From: Prevotella illustrans
GTDB taxonomy: Bacteria; Bacteroidota; Bacteroidia; Bacteroidales; Bacteroidaceae
DNA: 64,000 nucleotides
NCBI RefSeq assembly: GCF_017426725.1
Contig: NZ_JAERMS010000011.1
Coordinates: 303 to 64,302, forward strand
Direction: 5' to 3'
Shown here: in pieces, positions 5,053-63,731 of the stretch
Position numbering within the stretch: the first letter of the stretch is position 1
How the letters are laid out: every line of letters starts with the position of its first letter
Notes under the pieces: model-generated
The model's input: only the letters and a program-made list of their open reading frames with translations
Told to the model about the DNA's origin: nothing
Databases searched by the model: none
Position numbers and translations under genes: made by a program

Positions 5053-5155
5053 AAAAGCTATCCTTTTATCGGCTCAAAGCATAACGATTACGCCGTCAAA
5101 GCATAGCTTTTAGCGGGTGAAAGAGCCGCGATTACGGCCTAAAAGCATAGCTATT
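5053..5155. repeat. 22-nt-period palindrome array A (5 units)
   Basis: Unit starts at 5053, 5075, 5097, 5119 and 5141, exactly 22 nt apart. The units read AAAAGCTATCCTTTT, CAAAGCATAACGATT, CAAAGCATAGCTTTT, GAAAGAGCCGCGATT and AAAAGCATAGCTATT. Spacers are 7 nt (ATCGGCT, ACGCCGT, AGCGGGT, ACGGCCT). It belongs to the same family as the arrays at 18437, 40900, 52943 and 63311 and is more degenerate than the one at 18437. Confidence 0.88.
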
Positions 5156-5425
5156 GATGATAAAAAAGCAAAGAGAAAACACACGAAAAAGTACAATCTG
5201 TTGATAACCAGCGATTTATAAAGTTGCTCTAAAATCGCTTATTTGCGCCCGTCGCTTTTCTTTTTCAGAATAACGCCACTTTTTTGATGGTATATGTAAA
5301 GATAATTCAGCGCATTAGACATCATTGAGACTTGTAAACCTGTCCTTACTGATTTTCTACAGCCCCGTTCTTCCTTTACAAACGATCTAAAATTTCCGCC
5401 GAAGCCGATAAAAAGGCACAGTTGG

Positions 5426-6079
5426 TTAGGCTTCGTATGGTGTGGTATCGTTAATGTCGGCAAAGGCCAAGGCTTCTTTGCGTTCAATGCAGGTGCCACA
5501 TTTGCCACAATGTTTGTTGCCGCCCTTGTAACAGCTCCACGTCTCGGTATAGTCTAACTTCAACTTCTTGCCGATGACGGCAATCTCGCCTTTCGTAATA
5601 TCGGTGTAGGGAGCTTCTACGCTCACGTTGACAAAGGTTCCGGCTTGCGCGGCACGGTCGATGGCTGTGATAAATTCGGGTCTGCAATCGGGATAGATGG
5701 TATGGTCACCGGCATGATTGGCAATGAGAACCTTTTTGAGGCCGTGGCTCTCGGCGATGCCAATGGCTATCGACAGCATGATGCCATTGCGAAAAGGCAC
5801 GACGGTCGACTTCATGTTGTCTTCTGTGTAGTGGCCTTCGGGAATGGCCGTGGCCCCATCGAGGAGCGAACTCTTAAAATACTTGCTCATGAAATCGAGC
5901 GGAATCGTCAGATGGTTGATTCCTAAACGCTCACAGTGCATCTTGGCCAGTGGAATTTCTTTGGCGTTGTGGTTGCTTCCATAGTCAAACGATATTCCAA
6001 GGGCTATTTCGTCCTTTTTGTCGTAAAGCAGTGTGATGGAATCCATGCCACCGCTGACAATAATAATAGAATCTTTCAT
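5426..6079 (-). CDS. queC: 7-cyano-7-deazaguanine synthase
   Basis: A 217-residue enzyme of queuosine biosynthesis that converts 7-carboxy-7-deazaguanine to preQ0 with ATP and ammonia. The N-terminal PP-loop is SGGMDSITLLYD. The C-terminal zinc site is visible as a Cys followed by CGKCGTC (CYKGGNKHCGKCGTC). The length is right for the family. The gene starts 47 nt after radA on the same strand and is probably co-transcribed with it. No other queuosine gene and no preQ1 riboswitch is visible nearby. Confidence 0.96.
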   Translation of the reverse strand: MKDSIIIVSGGMDSITLLYDKKDEIALGISFDYGSNHNAKEIPLAKMHCERLGINHLTIPLDFMSKYFKSSLLDGATAIPEGHYTEDNMKSTVVPFRNGIMLSIAIGIAESHGLKKVLIANHAGDHTIYPDCRPEFITAIDRAAQAGTFVNVSVEAPYTDITKGEIAVIGKKLKLDYTETWSCYKGGNKHCGKCGTCIERKEALAFADINDTTPYEA

Positions 6080-16968: not shown

Positions 16969-18257
16969 TTACTTTTCCTCCGTCGGTTTCCCGGCGGGCC
17001 TCAGGATAAGGCGCAGACTCTGTTTATAGTTCATATAGTTCCACATCCAATTCAGGAACACAATGGTCTTGTTCTTTACACCGAGGATAGACCTCAGATG
17101 TACGACGAGCCACAAAAGCCATGCGAAAAGTCCGCCGAATCTTAGCTTGCCGATTTCGGCCACAGCCTTCTTTCGGCCGATGGTGGCCATGGTGCCCAGA
17201 TTACGATAGATAAAAGGTTGTGGTGCCTGATCGTGGTCCATGCCTTTCAAGTTCTTGGCTACGATGTCTGCTTGTTGCATGGCCACTTGAGCCAGCTGCG
17301 GATGACCGTAGGGATATTTCGGATCGCCCTCTACCAGACTCTGGTCGCCGATGGCATATACATGTTCCATACCTTTTACGCGGCAGTAGCGGTCGGTCAG
17401 TATACGTCCACCCCGACCAATGCTCTCGGCAGGAATCCCCTTTATGCTGTTTGCCACAATGCCACTTACCCATATTACGGTTTTCGATGGAATGCGGGTT
17501 CCGTTCTTCAGCACCAACCGGCCGTCCACATAGTCCGTCACCATGCTGTTCTGTCTGATGTGAACCCCCATCTCTTTCAGGTCTTTTTCAGCTTCTGCCG
17601 ACAACTTAGGATCTATCGCGGCCAGCAACCGGTCGCCCGCGTTGATCAGATAGATGTGCATACGAGCCGAGAGATCAGGGTAGTCACGGTGAATTACGGT
17701 GCGTTTCATTTCGGCCAGTACGCCCGCTATCTCCACGCCCGATGGTCCTCCGCCCACGACGGCGATTGTCATCAGTGCCTCGCGTTCGGCCTCGTCGGGT
17801 TGGCATACGGCCTCTTCCAGTCGAGAAAATATCGTGTTGCGCAGTTGCATCGATTCCGAAACCGTCTTCATCGGATAAGTGTTCTGTTCCAGATTCTTAT
17901 TGCCGAAGAAATTGGTTGTGGCACCGGCTGCCAGCACAAGATCGTCGTAGTGCACGGTTCCGAATGTAGTTTGAATGGTCTTTTCCCGCGTGTTGATACT
18001 CTGGACCTCACCCATGCGGAAAAAAAGTTCTTGTCATTCTGAAACATTCTGCGGAAAGGGAAAGAGATATTGCTCGGTTCCAGTCCGGCCGAGGCAACCT
18101 GATAGATCAGCGGTGGAAATTGGTTGTAGTTGTTCTTGTCTACCAGCATAACCTGATAATCTGTCTTTTTCAGGCTCAAGGCCAGCTTTAGCCCTCCCAG
18201 GCCTCCACCTACGATAACGATTCTTCTCTGTTCGTTCCTTCTGATGTTAGCTCTCAT
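16969..18257 (-). pseudogene. ndh: type II NADH dehydrogenase, interrupted by a frameshift
   Basis: Two overlapping frames together encode one NDH-2-like flavoprotein that passes electrons from NADH to quinone without pumping protons. The first frame (from 18257) has the FAD-binding motif RIVIVGGGLGGLKLALSL and runs through FPFRRMFQNDKNFF. The second (ending at 16969) resumes at MGEVQSINTREKT, has the NAD-binding GGGPSGVEIAGVLAE and a C-terminal amphipathic tail. The break is at a run of seven A on the plus strand (18020-18026); eight would restore KNFFFRMGEV in a single frame. So this is a one-base loss in a homopolymer: a sequencing error, a phase-variable tract or a true inactivating mutation. 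It is the first gene of the operon with the cupin and DUF438 genes. Confidence 0.9.
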
Positions 18258-18615
18258 ATTTCTGCTTTTTTATTCATGTCACACGATATTGTGCTCATTG
18301 ATAGCATAGCAATAGTCATGCCAAGGAGATAAGATATTTTCAAGCGGTTGTATTTTTTTCTTTCTTTCCCTTATTTCACCATGGTTGGCAGCCGTTTTTG
18401 GCTTGCTCCGAAATCAGCATAGAACAATCGCTTTCTAAAAGCAGCCCTTTTACCTTGCAAAAGCTATGCTTTGACATTCCAAAAGGGCTGCTTTTAGCGT
18501 GTAAAAGCATAGCTTTTGCAAGGTAAAAGGGCAGCTTTTAAAAACCGATAGCTAAGTGTCTGTTTATTAGTGGGTTTGAGATGCGCTTGGCTTGGGTAAG
18601 ACGCGATACCTATAA
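18258..18615. other. intergenic region upstream of ndh and the imelysin remnant
   Basis: Apart from the array at 18437-18539 I see no gene and no clear promoter here. The region between the array and 18616 runs straight into the truncated 5' end of the imelysin remnant, so part of it may be deletion scar. Confidence 0.6.
18437..18539. repeat. 22-nt-period palindrome array B (5 units, best preserved)
   Basis: Unit starts at 18437, 18459, 18481, 18503 and 18525. The units read AAAAGCAGCCCTTTT, AAAAGCTATGCTTTG, AAAAGGGCTGCTTTT, AAAAGCATAGCTTTT and AAAAGGGCAGCTTTT. Units 1 and 3 are reverse complements of each other, as are units 2 and 4 apart from one base. Spacers are 7 nt and differ (ACCTTGC, ACATTCC, AGCGTGT, GCAAGGT). 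The first and last spacers are related as reverse complements (ACCTTGC, GCAAGGT), so the whole block has an overall inverted symmetry about its third unit. Confidence 0.95.
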
Positions 18616-19377
18616 ATGATTATTGTGGAGAATGAAAAGCGAATAGATCCGCATATCGACTCATGGCCACTCGACCATAAGCAGTTGCGGGATGTGCTCA
18701 ACAAGAAGGACATCATTGATGGTATCAACGGCTCCGATCCTGTTAAATACATTTATACGCAAAACAAGGACTTCGCCTCTGTCGTGGGATTCCACGGACT
18801 GGAGTTCATTCTCTTCCGTGATGGCAAGAACCGTACGCTCGAAGCCATCAATGCCGGTAAGGAAACAGCTGAAGGTTTGACAGGCGTGAACACGCTTGAT
18901 GAGCTTGCTTTTGCCGCAGCCGTATCGGGCGACTTGCGTAATATGACATATCTGCTGGAGTACGGATGGCTCGGCACAAAGGTTGAGGCTGCCCACTCGG
19001 CCGTCTTGCAGGCTGCTCCTTGGCTCACCGAGAAAATGAGCCACAAGGGACTTTCGCCCAAGGATGTCAGCTATGGTGACTATGTGCGCAGCGCCAAGCT
19101 GTCTACCGGCATGTTCGCTACTTGGCAGGAGACTCTGAAGAACATCTTTGTAGGCGGCTGCTCCAATATCTGTCAGGAGGTTGCCACCCAGAAACTGGGA
19201 CAGGCTTACCGTGTAGCCACGGGGTCGGGCACGCAGGATGATGCCGCCGACTATATCGAGTCGCCTTACAGCAAGCGTTCGTTCATCGACTATCAGGATA
19301 ATATCCGTTCTATCAAGAATTCGCTCTATGGCGCGCGCGACGTGGATGCGCCTGTCGCAAAGTCACTGCTGAACTAT
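18616..19377 (+). pseudogene. imelysin (peptidase M75-like) remnant, truncated at both ends
   Basis: About 254 codons match the central part of imelysin-family lipoproteins: IDPHIDSWPLDHKQLRDVLN, the hallmark GxHxxE as GFHGLEF, TGMFATWQETLKNIFVGGCS and SPYSKRSFIDYQDNIRSIKN. Imelysins are exported and usually about 350-400 residues; the signal peptide and N-terminal helices are missing here, and the C-terminal bundle stops abruptly after AKSLLNY. The frame then runs into unrelated sequence. The family is often linked to iron or redox genes, which fits the neighbouring remnants. A functional product is very unlikely. Confidence 0.8.
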
Positions 19378-19378
19378 C

Positions 19379-19620
19379 GACTTGATTTATCCCGAAATAA
19401 CGATAGAAGCCGGCGCGTTCCGTACGCTTCCCGTACCGACGAATTACGCCGTAAGATTCGAGTCGACCATCGGTATCGGAGGTAGCGGCTTGATCGACGC
19501 CATCGTCCCAAGTGGCAGACAACGGACGACAACTATTGGATGCCGATGATGATAGCCGGCCGTCAGTTGCCCCGTTATCAGCATCAGACCATTTATCCTT
19601 ATACGGATCTCATGCAGCAC
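19379..19620 (+). pseudogene. di-heme oxidoreductase (thiol oxidoreductase-like) remnant
   Basis: Fragments of a di-heme cytochrome c peroxidase-like protein in two frames. The first reads DLIYPEITIEAGAFRTLPVP and then IGIGGSGLIDAI; the second reads YWMPMMIAGRQLPRYQHQTI and then YPYTDLMQH. In intact family members, as I recall them, a GSGLLDAIP-like and a TIYPYTDLLLHDMG-like segment are far apart, so internal sequence has been deleted. No CxxCH heme motif survives. It lies between the imelysin and ccsA remnants. Confidence 0.65.
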
Positions 19621-40723: not shown

Positions 40724-40899
40724 TTCTGAAATGTTAAAAAACTTCCGTTTTCTTTACACCAAGTTGTCGATTCCTTCGCTTCTGAATCACCAACGTCATT
40801 CTTCGGCCGAAAAACGGCTTATTTTTGAAGTTTTGCTATCATGTTGATTTATAGCAAGTTATCTTTTCTTGGGAAGCTGTCGTGCCTTTCCGGTTTTCC

Positions 40900-41001
40900 A
40901 AAAGCAGCCCTTTTAGCTCCTAATAGCAGCCCTTTTAGCTTGTGAAAGCATAGCTTTTGCCTTGTCATTGCACTGCTTTTACGCTTCAAAAGTGTACTTT
41001 T
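40900..41001. repeat. 22-nt-period palindrome array C (5 units)
   Basis: Unit starts at 40900, 40922, 40944, 40966 and 40988. The units read AAAAGCAGCCCTTTT, AATAGCAGCCCTTTT, GAAAGCATAGCTTTT, CATTGCACTGCTTTT and AAAAGTGTACTTTT (14 nt). Spacers are AGCTCCT, AGCTTGT, GCCTTGT and ACGCTTC. The right arm CTTTT is intact in every unit while the left arm varies. Confidence 0.92.
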
Positions 41002-41266
41002 ACACCTTTTTTGCCGCTTTTTCTACCCCTAATCGCCTTGCGAAGACTCTCCAAATAGCTCTTTTTGTCGTTTTGAGGAGCTAAATGGCAAGTTTTGGAA
41101 GTGTTAAAATTTTGTTGTATAAATGTCTATTTTGAGAATCTAAGTAGAATATTTTGTTGCTTATTTGATGGTTACAATATTTTGTGATACCTTTTTTCGT
41201 CTGATCAATTCAAGTTGTATTAGAGCTTGATGGTTATGAAAGAATTCCGTTTTTCTTGCCGTAGAG

Positions 41267-52681: not shown

Positions 52682-52942
52682 GCAACTTTTCCGTAAAGCC
52701 ATTCGTTTAGCCCTAAACTTTTACCACGATGGGTCTCTTGTTCCGCCATCATATTTATTCATGCGGGAAATCAAGACAGAAATGAGTGCGGTCCATTAAT
52801 TGTTAAAATCGGCGAATTATCTTTACATCTTCTTCCGAATGGCCGCGTCGTTTGCCACAAAAAGTTTTTCGCGGGCAAATACGCGAGTTTTGGGCGGATT
52901 TGTATGTGGTTGTGAATCAGTGTCTTGCGTTTTTAAGTGAAC

Positions 52943-53067
52943 AAAAGGGGCGAAAAAGGGGCTTGAAAATGCAGCTTTAAGGGTGAGAAAGCGGCGTTTT
53001 GAGGCGATAAAAGTAGCCCTTTTAGGAGATGATAGCTGCGCTTTTGCGGGCTGAAAGCATGACAATG
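52943..53067. repeat. 22-nt-period palindrome array D (6 units, degenerate)
   Basis: Unit starts at 52943, 52965, 52987, 53009, 53031 and 53053. The units read AAAAGGGGCGAAAAA, GAAAATGCAGCTTTA, GAAAGCGGCGTTTTG, AAAAGTAGCCCTTTT, GATAGCTGCGCTTTT and GAAAGCATGACAATG. Only the fourth unit is a near-perfect palindrome, yet the 22-nt period is kept throughout. Confidence 0.85.
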
Positions 53068-53112: not shown

Positions 53113-53156
53113 GAATTTTAACACTTAGATGACACGGGACAGAAGTGTTAAAATTC
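53113..53156. repeat. 14-bp inverted repeat with TTTTAACACTT core
   Basis: GAATTTTAACACTT (53113-53126) and AAGTGTTAAAATTC (53143-53156) are perfect reverse complements with a 16-nt spacer. The TTTTAACACTT core recurs near arrays A, C and E. Confidence 0.88.
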
Positions 53157-53243
53157 TTACATTTTCTTTGACAAAACAGAAGTGTGTTTGCCTGTTTTTA
53201 CGAGTCAGACCTGCCTTTGTTTCTGCTCAGACGATAAACTCGC

Positions 53244-63310: not shown

Positions 63311-63391
63311 AAAAGCTATGCTTTGACAATGTAAAAGGGCTGCTTTTACATGCTAAAAGTGTAACTTTTGCATGCTAAAAGCACTGCAATT
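63311..63391. repeat. 22-nt-period palindrome array E (4 units)
   Basis: Unit starts at 63311, 63333, 63355 and 63377: AAAAGCTATGCTTTG, AAAAGGGCTGCTTTT, AAAAGTGTAACTTTT and AAAAGCACTGCAATT. The first two repeat units 2 and 3 of array B exactly and in the same order. Spacers are ACAATGT, ACATGCT and GCATGCT. Confidence 0.92.
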
Positions 63392-63731
63392 AGCCCTCTA
63401 TTACGACACAAATGGAGTATTTTTGTGTGATAAAAAATATGCGTTTGTAATTAAGTGCTTGATAATCAGGTGTTTGGTAAAGTGTCGAAATTTTAGCTTT
63501 TTCAGGACCAAGACAAACTTTTTTCAAAATAACGCAGCCATTTGGAGCTGTTTGTCAAACAAATTCAGTATGCACGTAGCCAAGTTTTTGTTGTTTTATA
63601 AATACCTGTTCTATATTTGTTTATGTGTTGTAGGCGAGATGGAGACTTCTTGAAGTTGGATACATTCCTTCAATAATTCTGCTTGTCCACTTCTAATTTC
63701 TTTGACCATTTGTTTATGGGGTTATTTGCTT

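Follow-up and report, generated by a model that had tools for sequence, protein, structure and literature searches.

Tandem protein-binding sites of ~22 bp, two helical turns, are known from plasmid iterons, which lie at one replication origin. Dispersed sites are known from the DNA uptake sequences of Neisseria and Haemophilus, which come in dialects and are fairly evenly spaced, as single motifs of ~10–12 bp at a much higher density than the elements described below. Within Prevotella, the available part of the PINSR report describes an intergenic repeat of ~188 bp in 177–184 copies, without terminal inverted repeats or a protein, largely absent from conjugative elements and limited to one clade (PMC4755523). 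In E. coli, DNA gyrase recognizes a degenerate motif of ~130 bp, with a cleavage site in its central 36 bp and flanks in which GC content is periodic at 10.75 bp and AT faces the protein; it prefers the BIME-2 intergenic repeats, according to the accessible part of that study (PMC6379681).

Here we describe dispersed, helically phased arrays found in a window of 64,000 nucleotides from Prevotella illustrans, the larger element to which they belong in Prevotella histicola, and their likeness to PINSR.

Phased arrays in the window and its genome

A scan of the window for five consecutive units of the form AAAAG-N5-CTTTT found 5 arrays with a pitch of 22, whereas pitches of 16–21 and 23–29 gave none. 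The features are as follows.

5053..5155: five-unit array with two degenerate units, 42/50 consensus letters
18427..18549: long imperfect inverted repeat spanning the 18437 array, its 59-nt arms (88% complementary) separated by 5 nt
18437..18539, + strand: best array, five 15-nt units at 18437, 18459, 18481, 18503 and 18525, pitch 22, 49/50 consensus letters
40900..41002: five-unit array with the last two units degenerate, 43/50 consensus letters
52965..53067: most degenerate array, one exact unit (53009), 38/50 consensus letters
63311..63391: four-unit array with two exact units, 63333 and 63355
63447..63467, + strand: candidate right arm of the 63311 element, GTAAT...TTGATAATC, likened by eye to the GTAAC...TTGATTATC arm of P. 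histicola

The exact 22-nt steps between the five units of the best array, first reported in an earlier note, were borne out, the unit at 18459 ending in CTTTG (9/10 letters). The arrays that it placed at 5053, 40900 and 63311 also stand, whereas the unit it gave at 52943 is degenerate and the best frames there start at 52965 and 52987 (38/50). Its statement that the arrays avoid genes is borne out by the main ORFs; a putative 93-aa ORF (63372–63653) overlaps the last array. The 18437 array is in addition an inverted repeat, a feature absent from that account.

The arrays occupy diverse gene contexts. The best one lies between divergent ORFs (18257 on the minus strand; 18616 on the plus strand), and that at 52965 between convergent ORFs, of which the downstream is a Band_7/SPFH gene. 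The 5053 array is flanked by a phosphoglycerate kinase ORF and a QueC ORF, with a further, uncharacterized ORF at 5239–5508, the 40900 array by a DUF4421 ORF and a nucleotidyl-transferase-like ORF, and the 63311 array adjoins a lysyl/asparaginyl-type tRNA synthetase ORF. To the left of the best array, two overlapping minus-strand ORFs (16969–18257) both match Pyr_redox_2, the longer one also NDH2_C, and appear to be one NDH-2-type gene split by a frameshift or an assembly error. To its right, the ORF at 18616–19485 (289 aa) belongs to the imelysin family (PF09375); its ortholog in the closest genome found, G316 (83% amino acid identity), lies in a 427-aa frame, with ~850 nt separating two stretches that are adjacent in the window, and the ORF was probably shortened by internal deletion in the window’s genome. 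The 3.7-kb G316 locus keeps the imelysin gene but carries no array, and its alignment to the window is confined to that gene and the sequence following it.

TGATWATC and TTACAAA-type motifs also occur in the flanks in the window’s own genome, and their arrangement varies. Near the 40900 and 52965 arrays, a GTTAAAA...TTTTCTTTACA/GACA sequence recurs at 40731–40763, 52798–52824 and 53143–53169, perhaps as a promoter-type motif or as another part of the element family. A perfect 14-nt inverted repeat, GAATTTTAACACTT/AAGTGTTAAAATTC, lies at 53113–53156, just past the 52965 array.

Across the whole genome (3.09 Mb, 138 contigs), exact AAAAGN5CTTTT units number 136, against 13 for the reversed control pattern. 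An excess of 22-nt spacing, proposed earlier as a check on the arrays, is evident: all 44 neighboring pairs with a gap of 0–30 nt lie 22 or 44 nt apart (34 gaps of 7 nt, 10 of 29 nt), with no other gap among them and no such pair in the control. A 29-nt gap marks one mutated unit in between. The 22-nt-pitch arrays are therefore real.

The 7-nt spacers differ, as had been observed, but they are not free, having the form R-N5-Y in 21/21 counted in this genome, in 207/207 from P. histicola and in 17/18 from P. bivia. The repeating frame is therefore A4-R-N5-Y-T4-R-N5-Y, of 11 + 11 bp, and A4 and T4 tracts alternate every 11 bp along the arrays. The two main core forms had been described as both self-complementary; this fails for GGGCTGC, which has G.G at positions 6/10, and among 28 units of the genome pairing is found in 36% at positions 6–10 and in 4% at positions 7–9. 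CRISPR loci, by contrast, combine identical repeats with unique spacers of ~26–40 nt; the spacers here are 7-nt R-N5-Y sequences in a few recurring forms, and the earlier judgment that this is not a CRISPR was right.

The larger element, its symmetry and the RNA question

A sample of 692,577 bp from P. histicola contained 71 arrays, 2 of which could not be oriented; one more was shifted by a unit, and covariation and box offsets were computed on 67. Of the 69 orientable copies, 68 share a single register for their five units and have a GTAAC-N17-GTTACAAA arm; most also carry TTGTAA boxes. The consensus begins with a TTGTAAAA box, followed after ~20 nt by the five units, ACAAGCC and TTTGTAAC; its 3′ part consists of TTGATTATC, GTTACAAA (22 nt after GTAAC), a poorly conserved linker of ~50 nt and a TTGTAAG..TTATTTC box. 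The full element measures ~240 bp, with near-fixed box offsets. Constancy of the GTAAC/GTTACAAA offset arises by construction, because both motifs served to orient the copies. The boxes, by contrast, played no part in orienting the copies. Of 66 scored copies, 56 have the 3′ TTGTAA box at offset 196, 6 at 197 and 4 at 195; of 60 scored for the 5′ box, 42 have it at −28 and 15 at −29. In shuffled 3′ windows, a 5/6 match to TTGTAA occurred at any place in 26/67. Pairwise identity between copies falls from 73% in the array to 40% in the linker and 28–29% outside the element, and is 62% overall; the spacers are position-specific within the element. The arrays are thus the core of a larger, mostly intergenic element.

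Within units, the letters at positions 6 and 10 are linked in a way that base pairing does not explain. In 241 intact P. histicola units they were A.C in 96, G.T in 81, G.C in 61 and A.T in 3, so that at least one GG/CC arm is retained and pairing is not. The ten strongest covarying column pairs among 67 gap-free copies had a Watson-Crick share of 0.04–0.46, and the strongest covariations were flips in the orientation of a whole core or a whole spacer. Since the covariation inside units is not of the Watson-Crick type, small RNA hairpins, one per unit, which had been offered as one possible role, are unlikely and are not supported by these data.

Symmetry is found at the level of the whole array, where units 1 and 5 are opposite in 53/66 copies (P 4e-6) and units 3 and 4 are alike in 53/67. 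We prefer to read this dyad as the footprint of a roughly dyad-symmetric protein assembly, although a long hairpin could also make use of it. Rfam searches of 18200–18800 in the window and of 18500–19000 in L205 gave sub-threshold matches only, none at the gathering score; several of these were of the microRNA-precursor type and fell on the long inverted repeat.

That the arrays act in RNA, as transcribed hairpins or as bidirectional terminators between genes, is accordingly judged very improbable. Such a role would suit the complementary 59-nt arms around the 18437 array, the microRNA-precursor matches, the unit pairs of G004 and G107, which are mostly inverted among the matches listed and could form 15-bp stems with 7-nt loops, and an enrichment between convergent genes (26/65 arrays, vs. 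46/215 background gaps). It is contradicted by the letters within units (A.C 40%, A.T 1%), by the low Watson-Crick share of the ten strongest covarying pairs and by the lack of any Rfam match at the gathering score, and it sits poorly with elements that are unbiased in orientation to genes and lie between divergent genes in 10/65 cases.

Distribution, dialects and chromosomal spacing

Of 398 genus genomes, 53 have the two-unit pattern; in a search of relatives, it occurred in 0/24 genomes of other families. A core-free structural pattern (A4N7T4N7 three times, ≤2 mismatches) matched 199 of the 398, with 0–579 hits per genome and, counted by eye, at least 20 hits in 62 genus genomes, the window’s own included; its reversed control is not independent, as an array read backwards matches again. 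In an order-wide sample of 295 genomes, only G045, G454, G474 and G578 reached 20 structural hits outside the genus, and in the three of them with places listed the matches are to A/T runs. Some array-free genomes of the genus are complete, and the element is therefore dispensable in the genus.

Frame and pitch recur across the genus, and the cores, as read from the matches listed, form species dialects. GGGCTGC/GCATAGC cores are found in the P. illustrans window genome and G316, GGGCRYC forms in P. histicola, GGTNACC/GGTCATC in P. bivia, and CCTACGC/CAGCCGC/CAATAGG, after A4, in G107 and G016. At least five uncultured Bacteroidales contigs (L033, L038, L050, L107 and L146) carry 22-pitch arrays in another dialect, GTCTGAC/GTCTAAC, with spacers that mostly start with T or C, unlike R-N5-Y. 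Genome G333 has 0 matches to the two-unit pattern and 17 to its reversed form; the structural pattern finds TTTTCATGAAG-type arrays at 22-nt pitch there, possibly a T/A-swapped dialect.

Among plasmid records, the P. histicola element had no match, and the window array matched one chromosome-size Prevotella replicon. Two such replicons are filed as plasmids, NC_022111.1 (1.77 Mb) and NZ_CP082843.1 (0.57 Mb), the latter carrying ribosomal-protein and tRNA-ligase genes. Nine stretches in viral contigs had the two-unit pattern, of which one or two resemble true arrays.

With respect to genes, 65 P. histicola arrays lay in (+,+) gaps in 14 cases, (−,−) in 15, convergent in 26 and divergent in 10, against 55, 62, 46 and 52, respectively, of 215 background gaps of at least 150 nt; the element showed no orientation bias to genes (14 vs. 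15). By a naive ORF caller, 8/65 arrays in P. histicola and 12/31 in P. nigrescens overlapped some ORF.

Along the chromosome the elements are over-dispersed, as judged against random intergenic placement, a null that rests on naively called ORFs. The clearest case in P. histicola is contig C54 (260 kb), where 34 elements have a mean gap of 7.6 kb and a gap CV of 0.31, vs. 0.93 ± 0.15 expected when elements are placed at random between genes (0 of 20,000). On C52 (180 kb; 22 elements) the CV was 0.56 (P 0.0099, and P 0.048 under a stricter null). The smallest gaps on these contigs, 3,173 and 3,916 bp, were never reached in 20,000 placements; one pair elsewhere in the sample is only 2,331 bp apart. 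The 334 kb of P. nigrescens analyzed without the mobile-gene region hold 31 elements, with a CV of 0.51 vs. 0.98 (0 of 20,000) and a smallest gap of 3,178 (P 0.0001). In the window’s own genome, contig C62 (7 elements) had a CV of 0.26 (P 0.003), and contig C51 a smallest gap of 3,665 (P 0.0009), with a CV P of 0.20 at a score threshold of 37 and of 0.0022 at 36. The 10 elements of P. bivia gave a P of 0.09 for the CV and of 0.003 for the minimum gap. Four species thus show over-dispersion; its most robust sign is that close pairs are lacking, and the CV evidence is not uniform.

Relatives of P. histicola were compared over 200 kb each of G155 and G169, which show 68–80% nucleotide identity to it in the larger aligned blocks and 96.4% to each other. 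Their 8 and 9 elements, respectively, have the architecture of P. histicola with a different consensus, in which unit 4 starts with WAYTAA in 17/17 copies (by eye). At every one of the 17 sites the other genome holds alignable sequence, and none was empty; four sites that fell below the score threshold or had changed in length were re-examined, and 3 of them align straight through the element. This agreement is weak evidence, because the two genomes are 96.4% identical. Between P. histicola and the pair, 1 of the 2 sites with both flanks aligned is occupied, and the elements at 122531 and 256675 match on one flank only. At 238234, P. histicola lacks an element where G155/G169 have one, but this is not a clean empty site, because another small ORF lies there. 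Position across species is thus only partly conserved. Concerted change of dispersed copies without homogenization would fit co-evolution with a putative trans-acting factor.

A putative binding platform and its likeness to known systems

Predicted DNA shape adds to the picture. In a wedge model, scored against dinucleotide shuffles, 66/67 P. histicola arrays exceeded the 95th percentile for predicted curvature, and each of the five window arrays was matched or exceeded in curvature by a fraction of 0.003–0.037 of the shuffles. Predicted curvature was highest at pitches of 20–22 and near background at 17–18 and at 24 or more.

The interpretation that we favor, with slightly less than even confidence, is that the arrays are the cores of an element family and serve as wrapped multi-site binding platforms for a putative sequence-specific chromosome-organizing protein. 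A DNA-binding protein or nucleoid organizer, one of the roles proposed at the outset, fits the helical phasing, predicted curvature, mostly intergenic placement, species-wide core specificity and over-dispersion. The protein would be a dimer that reads two half-sites in each unit, a strong one (GGGC in P. histicola) and a lenient one; phased dimers on one face of curved DNA would wrap it, even spacing might serve chromosome domain organization or topology, and dialects could arise as the protein’s specificity and its many sites change together. Several observations weigh against this reading: even spacing is not uniform (C52 under the stricter null, C51, P. bivia and the 2,331-bp pair), transposition immunity could also produce over-dispersion, a long hairpin would also explain both the inverted repeat with 59-nt arms and the opposition of units 1 and 5, positions are only partly conserved across species, and the genus includes complete genomes that lack arrays. 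Bolder, and in our estimate doubtful, is the further proposal of a chromosome organizer of new design, in which evenly spaced wrapped platforms of ~240 bp, with five phased sites each, act as sequence-coded domain anchors for a dedicated putative protein whose specificity shifts along with up to hundreds of sites. If the inferred role is true, an abundant gut and oral genus would have sequence-coded chromosome-domain spacing, and its natural species dialects would make the recognition code directly testable.

The same features can be weighed under other mechanisms. A non-autonomous mobile repeat (MITE- or REP-like), its copies spaced by transposase immunity and its 22-bp units explained as transposase binding sites, is rather unlikely in our view, though a fair number of observations suit it: copy number varies strongly among species (0–579 structural hits), intergenic and convergent-enriched placement is typical of tolerated insertions, kilobase minimum spacing and over-dispersion could also stem from transposition immunity, and, among the matches listed, some 59-nt stretches of P. 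bivia arrays occur at two places (G010 C1:43319 and C3:394507). The P. histicola elements, however, end in TTGTAA boxes in direct rather than inverted orientation, their copies average only 62% identity yet keep a fixed geometry, no empty site appeared at the 17 G155/G169 sites, though these are close relatives, and a Y1 transposase is present in only 2/10 array-rich genomes. A Mu/Tn7-type transposase (PF09299) had no match in 20 genomes, the control genomes being equally silent. Even if the element is selfish, its exact helical pitch, fixed unit number and kilobase minimum spacing would make it an unusually constrained repeat.

Alternatively, the platform could act at the DNA level with DNA gyrase as its protein, as strong wrapping sites that set supercoiling domains. 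The 11-bp AT/GC phasing over 110 bp and the predicted curvature would suit such sites, but in the arrays the units continue through the center and the cores, highly specific, differ between species, which makes gyrase an improbable partner. Species-recognition tags for DNA uptake, as in Neisseria or Haemophilus, would account for species-specific dialects and even spacing; with a five-site element of ~240 bp every 8–40 kb, this proposal has very little to recommend it.

The earlier note knew of no named element of this form. For one clade a name probably does exist, since PINSR of P. intermedia/nigrescens very likely belongs to the same family. The comparison used the first 400 kb of P. nigrescens NZ_CP082843.1, a 568-kb replicon filed as a plasmid, aligned to itself by BLAST. 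Of 35 islands of dispersed repeat (59–223 bp), 28 carry a 22-pitch array, and arrays number 31 at pitch 22 against at most 1 at each of 8 other pitches. By eye and from an incomplete table, 29/31 arrays lie outside annotated CDS and two in small hypothetical proteins, a placement that the PINSR authors also noted for strain 17, in the part of their text available (PMC4755523). No array reached threshold at 334–400 kb, where mob, transposase and restriction genes are annotated. In being dispersed, mostly intergenic and absent from the mobile-gene region, the P. nigrescens arrays resemble PINSR. An array lies just downstream of tnaA in 1/4 TnaA-bearing genomes. PINSR is very likely the family’s dialect in P. 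intermedia/nigrescens, by likeness of description rather than of consensus letters. The available part of the PINSR text gives no internal periodicity, dialects or spacing (PMC4755523), and arrays were seen in species that were negative by PCR, P. corporis (L072) among them.

Other systems share single features with the arrays. BIME/REP elements with RAYT are likewise intergenic palindromic units in short arrays of either orientation, whereas the arrays have an exact 22-bp pitch, a fixed unit number and A4/T4 phasing. A REP/RAYT reading is not supported, PF01797 (Y1) having no match in 8/10 array-rich and in 7/10 array-poor genomes. The BrickBuilt MITE of Porphyromonas gingivalis also carries tandem direct repeats, of 23 nt, in a dispersed intergenic element; as far as the accessible text goes, it has terminal inverted repeats in common with an IS, and as a candidate it was set aside, its repeat, AGAYCATARTATCCTCTCRTRTG, being different, not palindromic and without A4/T4 phasing (PMC4596501). 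Gyrase sites resemble the arrays in ~100–130 bp of helically phased AT/GC alternation that favors wrapping, but the arrays have sequence-specific cores and a periodicity that is unbroken through the center, by comparison with the available part of that study (PMC6379681). Plasmid iterons share the ~22-bp pitch, whereas the arrays are dispersed over the chromosome. In one open-licence library, the architecture, dialects and spacing were not found, and the search returned PINSR and unrelated elements only. Through its likely kinship with the arrays, the PINSR repeat published for one clade would extend to much of the genus.
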